From: Bacteroidales bacterium | Lineage (GTDB): Bacteria > Bacteroidota > Bacteroidia > Bacteroidales > UBA932 | DNA length: 58,880 bases | Assembly (NCBI GenBank): GCA_017398335.1 | Contig: JAFQGK010000040.1 | Coordinates: 1-58,880 of the forward strand | Direction: 5' to 3' | Part shown: piece after piece, positions 195 to 58,670 of the stretch | How positions within the stretch are numbered: position 1 is the first letter of the stretch | Layout: each line of letters begins with the position of its first letter | The notes under the pieces: model-generated | Told to the model about the DNA's origin: nothing | Databases searched by the model: none | What the model saw: only the letters and a program-made list of their open reading frames with translations | Position numbers and translations under genes: made by a program

Positions 195-2037
195 TAAAAT
201 GATGAAATACTCCTTCATTCTCCTTAGCGGGGAGACTGAAGGCTTCCTGACAAAGCTTCAGGAACTCGGCGTCGTTGACATCACACGTTCTGCGAAACCG
301 ATAGACGACTGCTCCGCCAGAATGCTGGACGAGGCCGCAGCAGCCAAGAAGCTGATCGGCAGACTTGAAGGCATTGACTACAGCAAGGATGCCGATAAAG
401 AGGCGATTATGAAAGCCTGTGCATCTGCATCTGTGAAATCTGACCTTGTCAGCGGTGCTCAGGCGTCACTTGCCGAGCTTGCAGAACTCGAAGCGGCCAA
501 AAACGCAGCCGACAAGGAAATCAAGGCAAGACGCCCGTGGGGAGAATTTGAGAAGTCAAGACTGGATGGTCTGACTGAACTTGGATATATTATAAGGTAC
601 TATTCTGTTCCTGCCAAGAAATTCTCAGCAGAATGGGCTGAGTTATATCCTCTGCAGGTAATCTCTGAAGACAAAGCGACCGTATGGTTCGTGACTGTCA
701 GCCGAAAGGACGAGGAATACAGATTCCCTGTTGACAATATTCCAGCACCGGAAGCATCGTACAAAGAAGCTCAGGCAACTTCTGACGAGCTCAAAGCAAA
801 GATCTGCAGTCTGAAGGGACTCCTTCTGAAATATAAGGATGCCATCCCTCAGATTGAAGAGACATACAGGAAAGGTCTCGTCGACCTCGACATTTATCTT
901 GCAAAGTCATCAACAGAATCAGCAGCGGAAAATCTTCTGAGCATAATGGAAGGATTCGCACCTGTTGAGAATGATGCACAGCTGTGCGAGGCATTTGACG
1001 CTCTTGGAGTTCTCTATATCCGCGAGGAGGCAGTTGAAAATGACAATCCTCCTATCAAGTTGAAGAACAACAGGTTCGTTAAGATGTTCGAATCACTTAC
1101 AGGTATGTACGGTATGCCGGATTACGGCGAATACGACCCGACGCCAGTGGTGGCTGTCTTCTTCCTGCTCTTCTTTGCAATGTGTCTCGGAGACGCAGGA
1201 TACGGACTGGTACTGATTCTTGTGGGACTTGCACTAAAGAAAGGATGGGTCAGAATCTCGATGTTTGACGGTATCGGAGGTCTGATTGCGACTCTCGGAG
1301 CGGCTACAACTGTCATCGGAGGTGCGCTAGGAACATTCTTCGGTATGTCCATAATCAATCTTGTACCAGAAGGCAGCGCCCTGCATTCATACTATGAGTT
1401 TGTAGGCAGCGACATCCCTACCCCTATGGGAGAGCTTCCTTTCCAGATGCTGCTCGCCCTCGGAATCGGAGTGTTCCACATATGCCTTGCAATGATCATA
1501 AAGGCAGTAGGTTACACAAAGAGATTCGGATTCAAGGAGAACATCGCGACATGGGGATGGCTCATACTTATTGTCGGCGGACTCATTGTTGCTCTCCTCG
1601 GAGTAGGCAAACTTATTTCTGCAGAGGCAATCAAATGGGCTGTGATAGTGATCGGAGCTGTCTCCGCCCTCGCTATCTACATATTCAACACCCCTGGCAG
1701 GAATCCTCTGATCAATGTAGGAGCAGGACTCTGGGACACCTACAACATGGCTACCGGAATCCTCGGTGACGTTCTCAGCTACATCCGACTCTTCGCACTC
1801 GGACTTGCCGGTGGTATGCTCGGCGCAGCGTTCAACGACCTCGGACTGATGGTACTTGGAGACGGCGGAGTCAACTGGGTATTCTTCATACTAATCCTCC
1901 TTATCGGCCATGTGCTCAACCTCCTGATGTCGTGTCTCGGTGCATTCGTACATCCGCTTCGTCTTAACTTCGTGGAGTACTTCAAGAACTCCGGATATGA
2001 AGGAAAAGGCAAAACATATAAACCATTGACAAAATAA
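187..2037 (+). CDS. ntpI: V-type ATP synthase subunit I (membrane stator subunit a)
   Basis: 616 residues, usual for the bacterial subunit I (600-660). Residues 1 to about 310 form the soluble, helix-rich half that binds the peripheral stalk. From about 320 onward come seven or eight hydrophobic segments, starting with the conserved GDAGYG at 335-340. The helix YIRLFALGLAGG near 533-544 carries the essential arginine (R534), which faces the ring glutamate and completes the ion path. The subunit sits in the inner membrane and couples ion flow to rotation. The ATG overlaps the end of subunit D by 8 bases, and subunit K follows after 23 bases. Whether the coupling ion is H+ or Na+ cannot be read from this subunit. 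Confidence 0.96.
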   Translation: MVDKMMKYSFILLSGETEGFLTKLQELGVVDITRSAKPIDDCSARMLDEAAAAKKLIGRLEGIDYSKDADKEAIMKACASASVKSDLVSGAQASLAELAELEAAKNAADKEIKARRPWGEFEKSRLDGLTELGYIIRYYSVPAKKFSAEWAELYPLQVISEDKATVWFVTVSRKDEEYRFPVDNIPAPEASYKEAQATSDELKAKICSLKGLLLKYKDAIPQIEETYRKGLVDLDIYLAKSSTESAAENLLSIMEGFAPVENDAQLCEAFDALGVLYIREEAVENDNPPIKLKNNRFVKMFESLTGMYGMPDYGEYDPTPVVAVFFLLFFAMCLGDAGYGLVLILVGLALKKGWVRISMFDGIGGLIATLGAATTVIGGALGTFFGMSIINLVPEGSALHSYYEFVGSDIPTPMGELPFQMLLALGIGVFHICLAMIIKAVGYTKRFGFKENIATWGWLILIVGGLIVALLGVGKLISAEAIKWAVIVIGAVSALAIYIFNTPGRNPLINVGAGLWDTYNMATGILGDVLSYIRLFALGLAGGMLGAAFNDLGLMVLGDGGVNWVFFILILLIGHVLNLLMSCLGAFVHPLRLNFVEYFKNSGYEGKGKTYKPLTK

Positions 2038-44986: not shown

Positions 44987-45958
44987 ATGAAGAAAATACT
45001 TCTTTCGATTGCACTGGTCATATCTGCTGGCATCGGTGCAAAAGCACAGACGCCAAAGACAGACCTCAGACCAGACGAGACAGTTCTTCTCTACACAGAC
45101 ACTTTCTCAGGAAGTCCCGACCCGGTATACGCAGAGAAAATAACCAGCGCTGGTTTCGAGATGGCAGTGGACAACAAGGTCGAGAAGCCTGAAAGCATCA
45201 GCGAAGGCGGTGACCTTGGCGACATTTCCGGGATGGCTAGAATCGACCTTTATTTTCCTAAGAAACCTAATGGTCAGATGATAGTCGTTTGCCCGGGCGG
45301 AGGATACAGATATGCAGCCAGTTTCAGGGAGGGCCTGTACGTAGCTGAATGGATGCTCGAAAGAGGCATTACCGTCGCTGTCGTGAAATACAGAATCCCT
45401 AACGGTCACTGCACAGTGCCGCTCACAGATGTTCAGAACGCATTCAGATACTGCAGAGCACATGCTCAGGAGTGGAATGTGGATCAGATCGGCGTGATGG
45501 GCTTTTCTGCCGGCGGCCACCTTGCCGCATCTGCGTCGACTCTCTGGGTGGACGAGATTACAAGACCGGACTTCTCTGTTCTCATCTATCCGGTAATCAC
45601 AATGGAAATAGGAGTGACTCACAAGGGTACACGCGAAAGACTGATCAAAGAGAGCGCGGTGTGGAACCACCATCTTGCCGACAGATACTCGCTTCAGAAA
45701 CAGGTTTCACGATTCACGCCGGACACATTCATAGTACTGTGTTCTGACGACAGAGTCGTACCTGCCGAGAACAGCCTTCTTTACTACAATGCACTTATCG
45801 ACCTTGACGTGCCTGCAGAAATGCACATCTGGCCGAAAGGAGGTCACGGATGGGGTTTCTCAAGTGAGAAACATGCTGGTAAGGGAAATGATAGTTTTGC
45901 TTACGCACGTCCTGAGTTCGAGGCATCACTGGAGCGTTGGCTTGAGGCAGTAAGATAG
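44987..45958 (+). CDS. Secreted alpha/beta hydrolase (esterase, BD-FAE-like)
   Basis: 323 residues. The signal peptide is about 21 residues (KKILLSIALVISAGIGAKAQ). The oxyanion block CPGGGYRYAA is near 105-114, the nucleophile is S174 in GFSAGGHLAAS, the acid is in CSDDRVVP and the histidine in GGHGWGF. This is the hormone-sensitive-lipase/feruloyl-esterase pattern, often acetylxylan or feruloyl esterase. An unusual segment of about 80 residues precedes the catalytic domain. The 3' end overlaps the convergent LysR gene by 33 bases. Substrate not determined. Confidence 0.88.
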   Translation: MKKILLSIALVISAGIGAKAQTPKTDLRPDETVLLYTDTFSGSPDPVYAEKITSAGFEMAVDNKVEKPESISEGGDLGDISGMARIDLYFPKKPNGQMIVVCPGGGYRYAASFREGLYVAEWMLERGITVAVVKYRIPNGHCTVPLTDVQNAFRYCRAHAQEWNVDQIGVMGFSAGGHLAASASTLWVDEITRPDFSVLIYPVITMEIGVTHKGTRERLIKESAVWNHHLADRYSLQKQVSRFTPDTFIVLCSDDRVVPAENSLLYYNALIDLDVPAEMHIWPKGGHGWGFSSEKHAGKGNDSFAYARPEFEASLERWLEAVR

Positions 45959-52052: not shown

Positions 52053-52056
52053 GGCA

Positions 52057-52099
52057 TAAAAACAAAAATGAGACTCGCCACTCACGTGGGGCGTCTCAT
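52057..52099 (-). terminator. Terminator of the small-peptide transcript
   Basis: On the minus strand ATGAGAC (52099-52093) pairs with GTCTCAT (52074-52068). An inner CCAC/GTGG stem with loop GTGA and two mismatches completes it, and TTTTTGTTTTTAT follows. The T run is only on the minus side. The stop codon of the peptide lies in the 5' arm. Confidence 0.75.
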
Positions 52100-52164
52100 A
52101 CTAACCACATAATTAATAACACTAAAACTAATAACCAATCGATTGTGAAATAAGCGAAAACCAT
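52096..52164 (-). CDS. 22-residue hydrophobic peptide (candidate small membrane protein)
   Basis: The frame opens at ATG 52164 and stops at TGA 52098-52096. It starts MVFAYFTIDW and continues as twelve almost purely aliphatic residues with one Trp (six Leu, all TTA). This could form one short membrane helix. It is the only frame on the minus strand between a full promoter (52182-52212) and an intrinsic terminator (52057-52099), with a leader of about 11 bases. TTA-only leucine use differs from the neighbours. I know no family for it. It might instead be a small RNA whose reading frame is chance, or a type I toxin-like peptide. Confidence 0.5.
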   Translation of the reverse strand: MVFAYFTIDWLLVLVLLIMWLV

Positions 52165-52181
52165 TTCGACCAATCGAGCTA

Positions 52182-52212
52182 CAAAGTTACGAAAACATTT
52201 TTATTTTCCAAA
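52182..52212 (-). promoter_or_regulatory. Promoter of the small-peptide/sRNA unit
   Basis: Minus strand TTTG (52212-52209), 19 bases, TAACTTTG (52189-52182), a full consensus pair. It points away from eno toward the end of the manganese permease gene; nothing but the 22-residue frame and a terminator lies ahead. Confidence 0.7.
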
Positions 52213-52250
52213 CACTTCTGGAATATATTTTGAAATTCCTATATACTTGA

Positions 52251-53537
<1,287 letters not shown>

Positions 53538-58641: not shown

Positions 58642-58662
58642 ATGTTATTAGTTTTAGTCTTA

Positions 58663-58670
58663 CAAAAATA
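58663..58670 (-). promoter_or_regulatory. -7 box for the symporter operon
   Basis: TATTTTTG on the minus strand, 21 bases before the symporter ATG. No exact TTTG at -33. Confidence 0.5.

Follow-up and report, generated by a model that had tools for sequence, protein, structure and literature searches.

The gap of 213 nt (positions 52053–52265) between an exporter ORF and the enolase gene of the window, by which we mean the whole 58,880-nt stretch of DNA under analysis, almost certainly holds a noncoding RNA gene. Its product is a multicopy small RNA of the genus that includes Candidatus Cryptobacteroides. We consider it probable that this is a trans-acting small regulatory RNA (sRNA) that pairs with mRNAs at their start codons in the manner of FopS, perhaps as a diverged FopS branch without the RRM protein.

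Structure of the predicted small RNA gene

As the earlier note on this DNA had claimed, the gap lies between enolase and what that note called a metal permease, an ORF that Pfam assigns to ArsP_2 (putative 10TM heavy-metal exporter). On its minus strand we found the promoter elements that had been described, TTTG and TAACTTTG with a 19-nt spacer, and the terminator stem, whose T run is confined to that strand. The 22-codon frame is likewise present; it encodes the hydrophobic sequence MVFAYFTIDWLLVLVLLIMWLV followed by a stop, writes six leucines as TTA, and has its stop within the left arm of the terminator. From promoter to terminator the whole unit occupies positions 52212–52058 of the minus strand (Table 1). 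The Bacteroidales promoter consensus is TTTG/TAnnTTTG, and the spacer between TTTG and the -7 box is 18–20 nt long in complete leader copies of the gene in which both boxes were detected. Transcription would start near position 52176. Two elements that the earlier note had missed, a 5' hairpin and a strongly conserved core, lie between promoter and terminator.

Table 1. Coordinates of the small RNA unit and of its predicted pairing site in the window, and copies elsewhere with two other kinds of upstream sequence
Feature	Position or loci	Strand	Basis or remark
Upstream promoter element TTTG (-33)	52209..52212	-	19-nt spacer to -7 box
-7 promoter element TAACTTTG	52182..52189	-	pattern match
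5' hairpin, outer stem CGATTG/CAATCG	about 52140..52176	-	folding and covariation
Frozen core GGTTATTAGTTTTAGTGTTATTAATTATGTGGTTA, predicted pairing region	52102..52136	-	conservation
Terminator hairpin	52068..52099	-	folding and covariation
Terminator T run, approximate RNA 3' end	52058..52068	-	sequence
22-codon frame, judged incidental	52096..52164	-	frame not kept among copies
Predicted pairing site	58645..58664	-	just before start codon 58641 of window symporter (Pfam SSF), 3 mismatches
tRNA-Cys-linked loci	L010, L013, L014, L033, L042-L048, L194, L230, L262		ARAGORN
Sigma-54-like copies	L009, L052, L053, L055, L167, L181, L183, L210, L252, L272		TGGCAC-N5-TTG ahead of core

The RNA of the window copy is more stable than shuffled sequences (z −2.5; 2 of 200 shuffles were equally stable). 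Its core is mostly unpaired, and single-strand folding predicts weak local pairing in part of it. A consensus terminator scan reported nothing for this hairpin, the stem of which has mismatches, and an Rfam search of the gap gave no match at the gathering cut-off. We nevertheless regard the unit as more than chance, since homologous copies with core, terminator and usually promoter recur in the genus.

A nearly invariant core between covarying hairpins

Our collection of distinct copies numbers 177, of which named genomes supplied 104, other genomes 70 and viral contigs three. In these copies, all of them retrieved by likeness to the core (with BLAST, with a model or with a pattern of 25 or 26 letters), 32 of the 35 core positions are invariant in 177 of 177, and the remaining three keep their letter in 176, 175 and 171; the flanking sequence diverges immediately outside the core. 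Because retrieval relied on similarity to the core, with at most one change per 25 letters tolerated in the large copy collection, diverged copies will have been missed. The GGT before and the TGGT after the search patterns are the less biased part, and they too are invariant in 177/177 copies.

The hairpins on either side of the core have changed in a compensatory way. Among 24 leader copies, 95.8% of cells in the 5' outer stem are paired and four of its six pairs are changed on both sides, while the two helices of the terminator are paired in 99% and 93% of cells, with both sides changed in six of ten pairs. Taken together, 10 of 16 pairs carry compensatory changes and 96% of cells are paired, compared with 38–50% in a control in which the partners were slid, the structure for this test having been taken from the same alignment of 24 copies. 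When 114 distinct leaders were folded, 79% beat their shuffles by over one standard deviation. TTTT stands at the terminator-tail position in 162 of 175 copies. The inner 5' hairpin often has a GTTCT loop (e.g. L021, L026 and L036), which is lacking in the window copy.

Copies within and beyond the genus

BLAST with the gap as query matched 51 of the 61 genomes of the genus, the window's own included, and 22 of 25 among the better genomes. The window's genome carries two sRNA copies, the window copy and one more; a third BLAST match there was rejected as an sRNA, being the start region of a gene. Across 199 genomes of the family, a model of core plus terminator (R1) matched 19, and every one of these belongs to the window's genus (one of 25 genera). 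Applied to the order, R1 gave matches at E ≤ 0.1 in nine of 198 genomes, of which two belong to the genus and the other seven are weak; the weak matches in other families (L065–L070) were set aside on reading their sequence. In another Bacteroidales family (f37), two of five genomes contain sRNA-like copies (L337–L340), in which either the core is a related one, GGTTGATTAGTTTTCGGGTTAATAATTGGTTAG, or TTAGTTAG is repeated.

Genomes have one to three matches each, and many of them, often incomplete, have a single one. A pattern scan of named genomes found at least 119 stretches carrying the core pattern; among the 80 matches listed, those named to genus are Candidatus Cryptobacteroides, and the rest bear names such as uncultured Bacteroidales, Rikenellaceae or Prevotellaceae bacterium. 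Enolase adjoins a copy in one of 175 loci with flanking DNA examined, the window's own, which rules out the enolase neighbourhood as a conserved feature. The comparison upstream of eno in relatives that had been suggested would have failed, the copies elsewhere lying away from enolase in the DNA examined. A mirrored copy at a contig end (L027) was taken as an assembly artefact and excluded from alignments A1 and A2; contigs stop at, or fold back on, sRNA copies at L027, L052 and L071, as is expected where a repeated gene breaks assembly.

The 22-codon frame is incidental

A small membrane protein, a type I toxin-like peptide and a regulatory RNA had all been left open for this locus by the earlier note, and of these the RNA stood while both peptides fell. 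When the frame was followed through 174 copies, after three truncated ones had been removed, an in-frame ATG was present in 16, and an in-frame ATG, GTG or TTG in 43. The ATG occurs together with the window's stop in 14 of the 174. The stop by itself has stayed in position in 118 copies, and there it overlaps the terminator arm, itself conserved. The frame is not maintained, whereas core, terminator and usually promoter are, which in substance is the pattern that had been named beforehand as telling against a peptide.

A 22-residue membrane or toxin-like peptide would draw on a frame that is open, hydrophobic and well positioned behind the promoter, and on the retention of its stop, but it has to contend with more than the rarity of its start codon. 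The core does not vary at third codon positions either, a constraint beyond what coding alone would impose, and the residues ahead of the core are dissimilar between copies. Where the promoter directly precedes the core there is no space for a peptide leader, and in the tRNA-linked copies the frame would begin within the tRNA. Since the frame is not kept, the core is frozen and the stems covary, we conclude that the product is an RNA and not a peptide. The peptide reading was rejected on the lack of a conserved frame, its probability being close to negligible, and the hydrophobic peptide is an accident of the AT-rich core. The locus thus shows that a tidy 22-codon frame can arise by accident inside an RNA gene.

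Upstream sequences and phage copies

Sorted by pattern, the 177 copies comprise 128 with a promoter and leader, 16 with the promoter directly before the core, 15 with tRNA-like sequence upstream, four others and three truncated ones. The remaining 11 fell by pattern into a class with a sigma-54-like promoter, which comes down to 10 because one of them, L270, has promoter and leader and belongs with that group. L155 and L189, placed among the others, look like leader copies whose -7 box was missed by the pattern. ARAGORN confirmed tRNA-Cys(GCA) in 14 of the 15 loci of the tRNA class; the tRNA ends 7–9 nt before the core and stands where promoter and 5' hairpin would be. For L164, assigned to this class by pattern, ARAGORN found no tRNA in the shortened DNA. 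The copies grouped as sigma-54-like share TGGCAC-N5-TTG, which we take to be a sigma-54-like (consensus) motif, and 7 of the 10 carry a different 5' hairpin.

Three viral contigs (L274, L275 and L276) are phage-like and have an identical core. The core follows straight after the gene for an NAD-dependent DNA ligase in two viral contigs and comes just after an integrase gene in one, so placed as if it were a 3'UTR sRNA or an attachment site. A more far-reaching reading, which we regard as doubtful, would make the family a genus-wide RNA hub in which one frozen seed of more than 30 nt is shared by phages and by four kinds of gene (promoter-direct, hairpin-capped, sigma-54-like and tRNA-Cys maturation trailer), with phage copies behind the DNA ligase gene and with the known chaperone absent. 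Sugar uptake would then be tied at one time to housekeeping transcription, to a sigma-54 signal, to the processing of tRNA and to infection by phages.

Predicted mRNA targets

Allowing up to three mismatches, the antisense of a 20-mer from the core occurs at five places in the window's genome: the two sRNA copies and three start regions. All three of the latter sites directly precede start codons, and the reversed 20-mer pattern occurs nowhere in this genome. The start region of an FGGY carbohydrate kinase gene is antisense to the core in 20 of 20 letters, and those of two sodium:solute symporter genes have three mismatches each. Predicted duplex energies are −33.7 kcal/mol for the kinase and −30.6 and −23.7 kcal/mol for the symporters; among 500 shuffled cores 0, 0 and 1, respectively, paired as strongly. 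The symporter in the window is the one at −23.7 kcal/mol; a shorter stretch gives it −21.9 kcal/mol, which 5 of 500 shuffled cores equalled. Scored over its 57 starts, the window gave −22.6 for a hydrolase gene at 44987 and −21.9 for the symporter (shorter stretch), the next best being −16.9. The kinase gene adjoins a gene for an AraR/NrtR-type regulator, and both symporter genes lie near genes for FAD-dependent oxidoreductases.

We extended the search to the 61 genomes. Of 24 non-sRNA sites, 17 lie no more than 20 nt before an ATG, compared with 8 of 30 reversed-pattern sites (30 of 32 were examined; one-sided Fisher p = 0.0014), and with a limit of 10 nt the figures are 16/24 and 6/30 (p = 0.0006). 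Both limits were set after seeing the data, and some of the 24 sites depend on one another: the kinase and an epimerase each appear twice in near-identical form, and near-identical genomes are included. Sites with up to three mismatches are not commoner than those of the reversed pattern (24 versus 32), and only their position is unusual. Sugar-related genes at the 17 sites include araA, GH20, the start of a SusC-type receptor, an epimerase and UDP-glucose dehydrogenase; the others include serine hydroxymethyltransferase, nucleoside diphosphate kinase, a ferredoxin and a DJ-1/PfpI protein.

Start regions at large showed no excess pairing (mean −11.01 kcal/mol over 777 start regions versus −11.00 for shuffled cores), which leaves a general function against start regions unsupported. 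The kinase was followed through related loci, with a start read in 22 of 30; eight gave none, and the start in L281 is perhaps placed too far upstream. Pairing is strong in two of these 22 loci, those of the window's own species (−33.7) and of a 99% relative (−29.1), moderate (−19.6 to −24.7) in six and weak in 14, so that the kinase as a target conserved over the genus is unsupported. Since its site varies among relatives, it cannot account for a core that is frozen across the genus. No target conserved genus-wide, such as could explain the frozen core, was found among the kinase loci or the 777 start regions.

Relation to FopS

According to the accessible text of their description (PMC11697453), the multicopy FopS sRNAs, a family reported recently, control the use of polysaccharides in Bacteroides. 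The same text gives 14 copies with canonical promoters for Bacteroides thetaiotaomicron, an RNA in which an unpaired 5' stretch is followed by the terminator, binding by the RRM protein RbpB, repression of SusC mRNA translation through pairing at the start region, and occurrence within Bacteroidaceae (PMC11697453).

The Rfam FopS model (RF04319) scored two copies of our family at 15.4 and 16.2 bits, far short of the 56 set as its cut-off, and the window copy was absent from its matches at E ≤ 10. When the order was searched with RF04319, FopS was found in 66 of 295 genomes (41 of 183 genera); it was not found in the window's genome or in the three other genomes of its family among those listed. 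Aligned with 22 distinct FopS seed regions, the core did better than shuffles, 18 of 1000 shuffled cores reaching its mean; in an earlier alignment test, 62 of 2000 shuffled cores were as good. In 20 of 30 FopS loci, R1 hit the same place as RF04319, with matches that are individually weak (E 0.1–2.3). A model built on one shuffle of the core landed there in 0 of 30; it did match paralogous copies in L335 (two matches) and the opposite strand in L310 (one match). A FopS copy in L335, picked as the best case, aligns along the core with 28 of 35 columns identical, a result equalled by 4 of 1000 shuffles. Copies in another Bacteroidales family (L064/L337 and L338) resemble both the core and FopS and look intermediate. 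The window sRNA family may be a strongly diverged relative of FopS, a descent that is likely but unproven.

With Bacteroides ihuae as positive control, RRM_1 was found in one of the 61 genomes of the genus, many of which are incomplete, and was not found in the window's own genome (86% complete). The lone RRM protein, of 97 aa, is encoded in genome G013 (L063, positions 1423–1716, minus strand); the adjoining ORF resembles a DEAD-box helicase by eye.

Proposed function and alternatives

In the reading that we favour, transcription of an RNA of about 115–120 nt would begin at a Bacteroidales promoter of housekeeping type and stop at the gene's own terminator, with the 5' hairpin perhaps acting as a protective cap. 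The 35-nt core would base-pair just upstream of the start codons of selected mRNAs, here those for the sugar kinase beside the AraR/NrtR-type regulator and for the two sodium:solute symporters, and this pairing would block translation initiation. We infer transcription, cap function, repression by the RNA and homology with FopS, and we have moderate confidence in start-codon pairing as the mechanism.

The core might instead chiefly bind an RNA-binding protein or a ribonuclease, as a sponge or carrier RNA, mRNA pairing being secondary or accidental. Thirty-odd invariant nucleotides exceed the needs of ordinary sRNA seeds, a conserved mRNA target was not found, and FopS itself is bound by a protein, RbpB, according to the accessible part of PMC11697453. 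We think this unlikely, however, given that RRM proteins, the known kind of partner, were found in one of 61 genomes and that the three other antisense sites of the window's genome are all at start codons. Far less probable still is a DNA element, whether an attachment site or a REP-like dispersed repeat, in place of an RNA gene; copies do stand at varied places, some of them beside tRNA-Cys and one phage copy by an integrase gene, but promoter, covarying RNA stems and terminator stand in register, and each genome has one to three matches only.

A further alternative shares its mechanism with the favoured reading and differs from it in descent: the family could be a clade-specific sRNA that is no homologue of FopS and has converged on the same plan. 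The sub-threshold Rfam scores, the modest significance of the alignments (62/2000 and 18/1000) and the failure to find FopS in the window's genome and three others of its family are all in keeping with convergence. The behaviour of R1 on FopS loci relative to its control (one shuffle), the 28 of 35 columns shared with the L335 copy (the best case picked) and the copies of another family (L064) that resemble both argue against it, and we consider convergence a possibility on the doubtful side.

If FopS-like start-codon pairing by this sRNA is true, start-codon-directed sRNAs would be a wider strategy of Bacteroidales that is independent of RbpB. The family would be a counterpart of FopS whose frozen seed is a different one, present in a large gut genus that is uncultured and in which RRM proteins are nearly undetected, and could serve as a natural experiment on what keeps a seed of more than 30 nt unchanged.

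Comparison with known small RNAs of Bacteroidales

A literature search with subscription papers outside its coverage found no description of a Cryptobacteroides small RNA, of a 15-letter piece of the core or of a tRNA-Cys-linked sRNA in Bacteroidales. RteR (RF04181) weakly matched the phage copy L274 over core and terminator, with 31.9 bits against a cut-off of 72 (E 0.0014 in a short search, 0.38 in a longer one); identity with RteR was rejected, the core being no closer to it than many shuffled cores (318/2000). BTnc049 (RF04179) weakly matched the window copy, with 14.3 bits at chance level (E 3–5), and L274, with 23.7 bits, against a cut-off of 81.9, and identity with it is unsupported.

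GibS of Bacteroides thetaiotaomicron has, in the accessible text of its description (PMC7366714), a long unpaired and highly conserved seed that pairs around the start codons of metabolic mRNAs. Going by that description, GibS and the window sRNA are alike in their long conserved unpaired seed and in start-codon pairing, predicted in our case, whereas its 145 nt, different promoter type and two seeds set GibS apart.

The differences from FopS lie in the seed, which begins GTGTTTTTCATGGTATTAGATTTAAGGTTAA in FopS and reads GGTTATTAGTTTTAGTGTTATTAATTATGTGGTTA in the window core, in the number of copies (one to three per genome in the genus versus 12–15) and in length (about 80 nt even in promoter-direct copies versus 65–70). 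Many copies of the genus are also unlike FopS in having a 5' hairpin, a tRNA-Cys or a sigma-54-like promoter. What the two families share is several copies per genome, a canonical promoter, an occurrence in phage DNA as well, and a conserved, mostly unpaired stretch before the terminator hairpin, to which the 5' hairpin is added in many copies of the genus. Pairing with the start regions of mRNAs for sugar uptake or sugar use has been shown for FopS, as far as the accessible text of its report goes, and is predicted for the window sRNA, and the layout of FopS is that of the promoter-direct copies in the genus.
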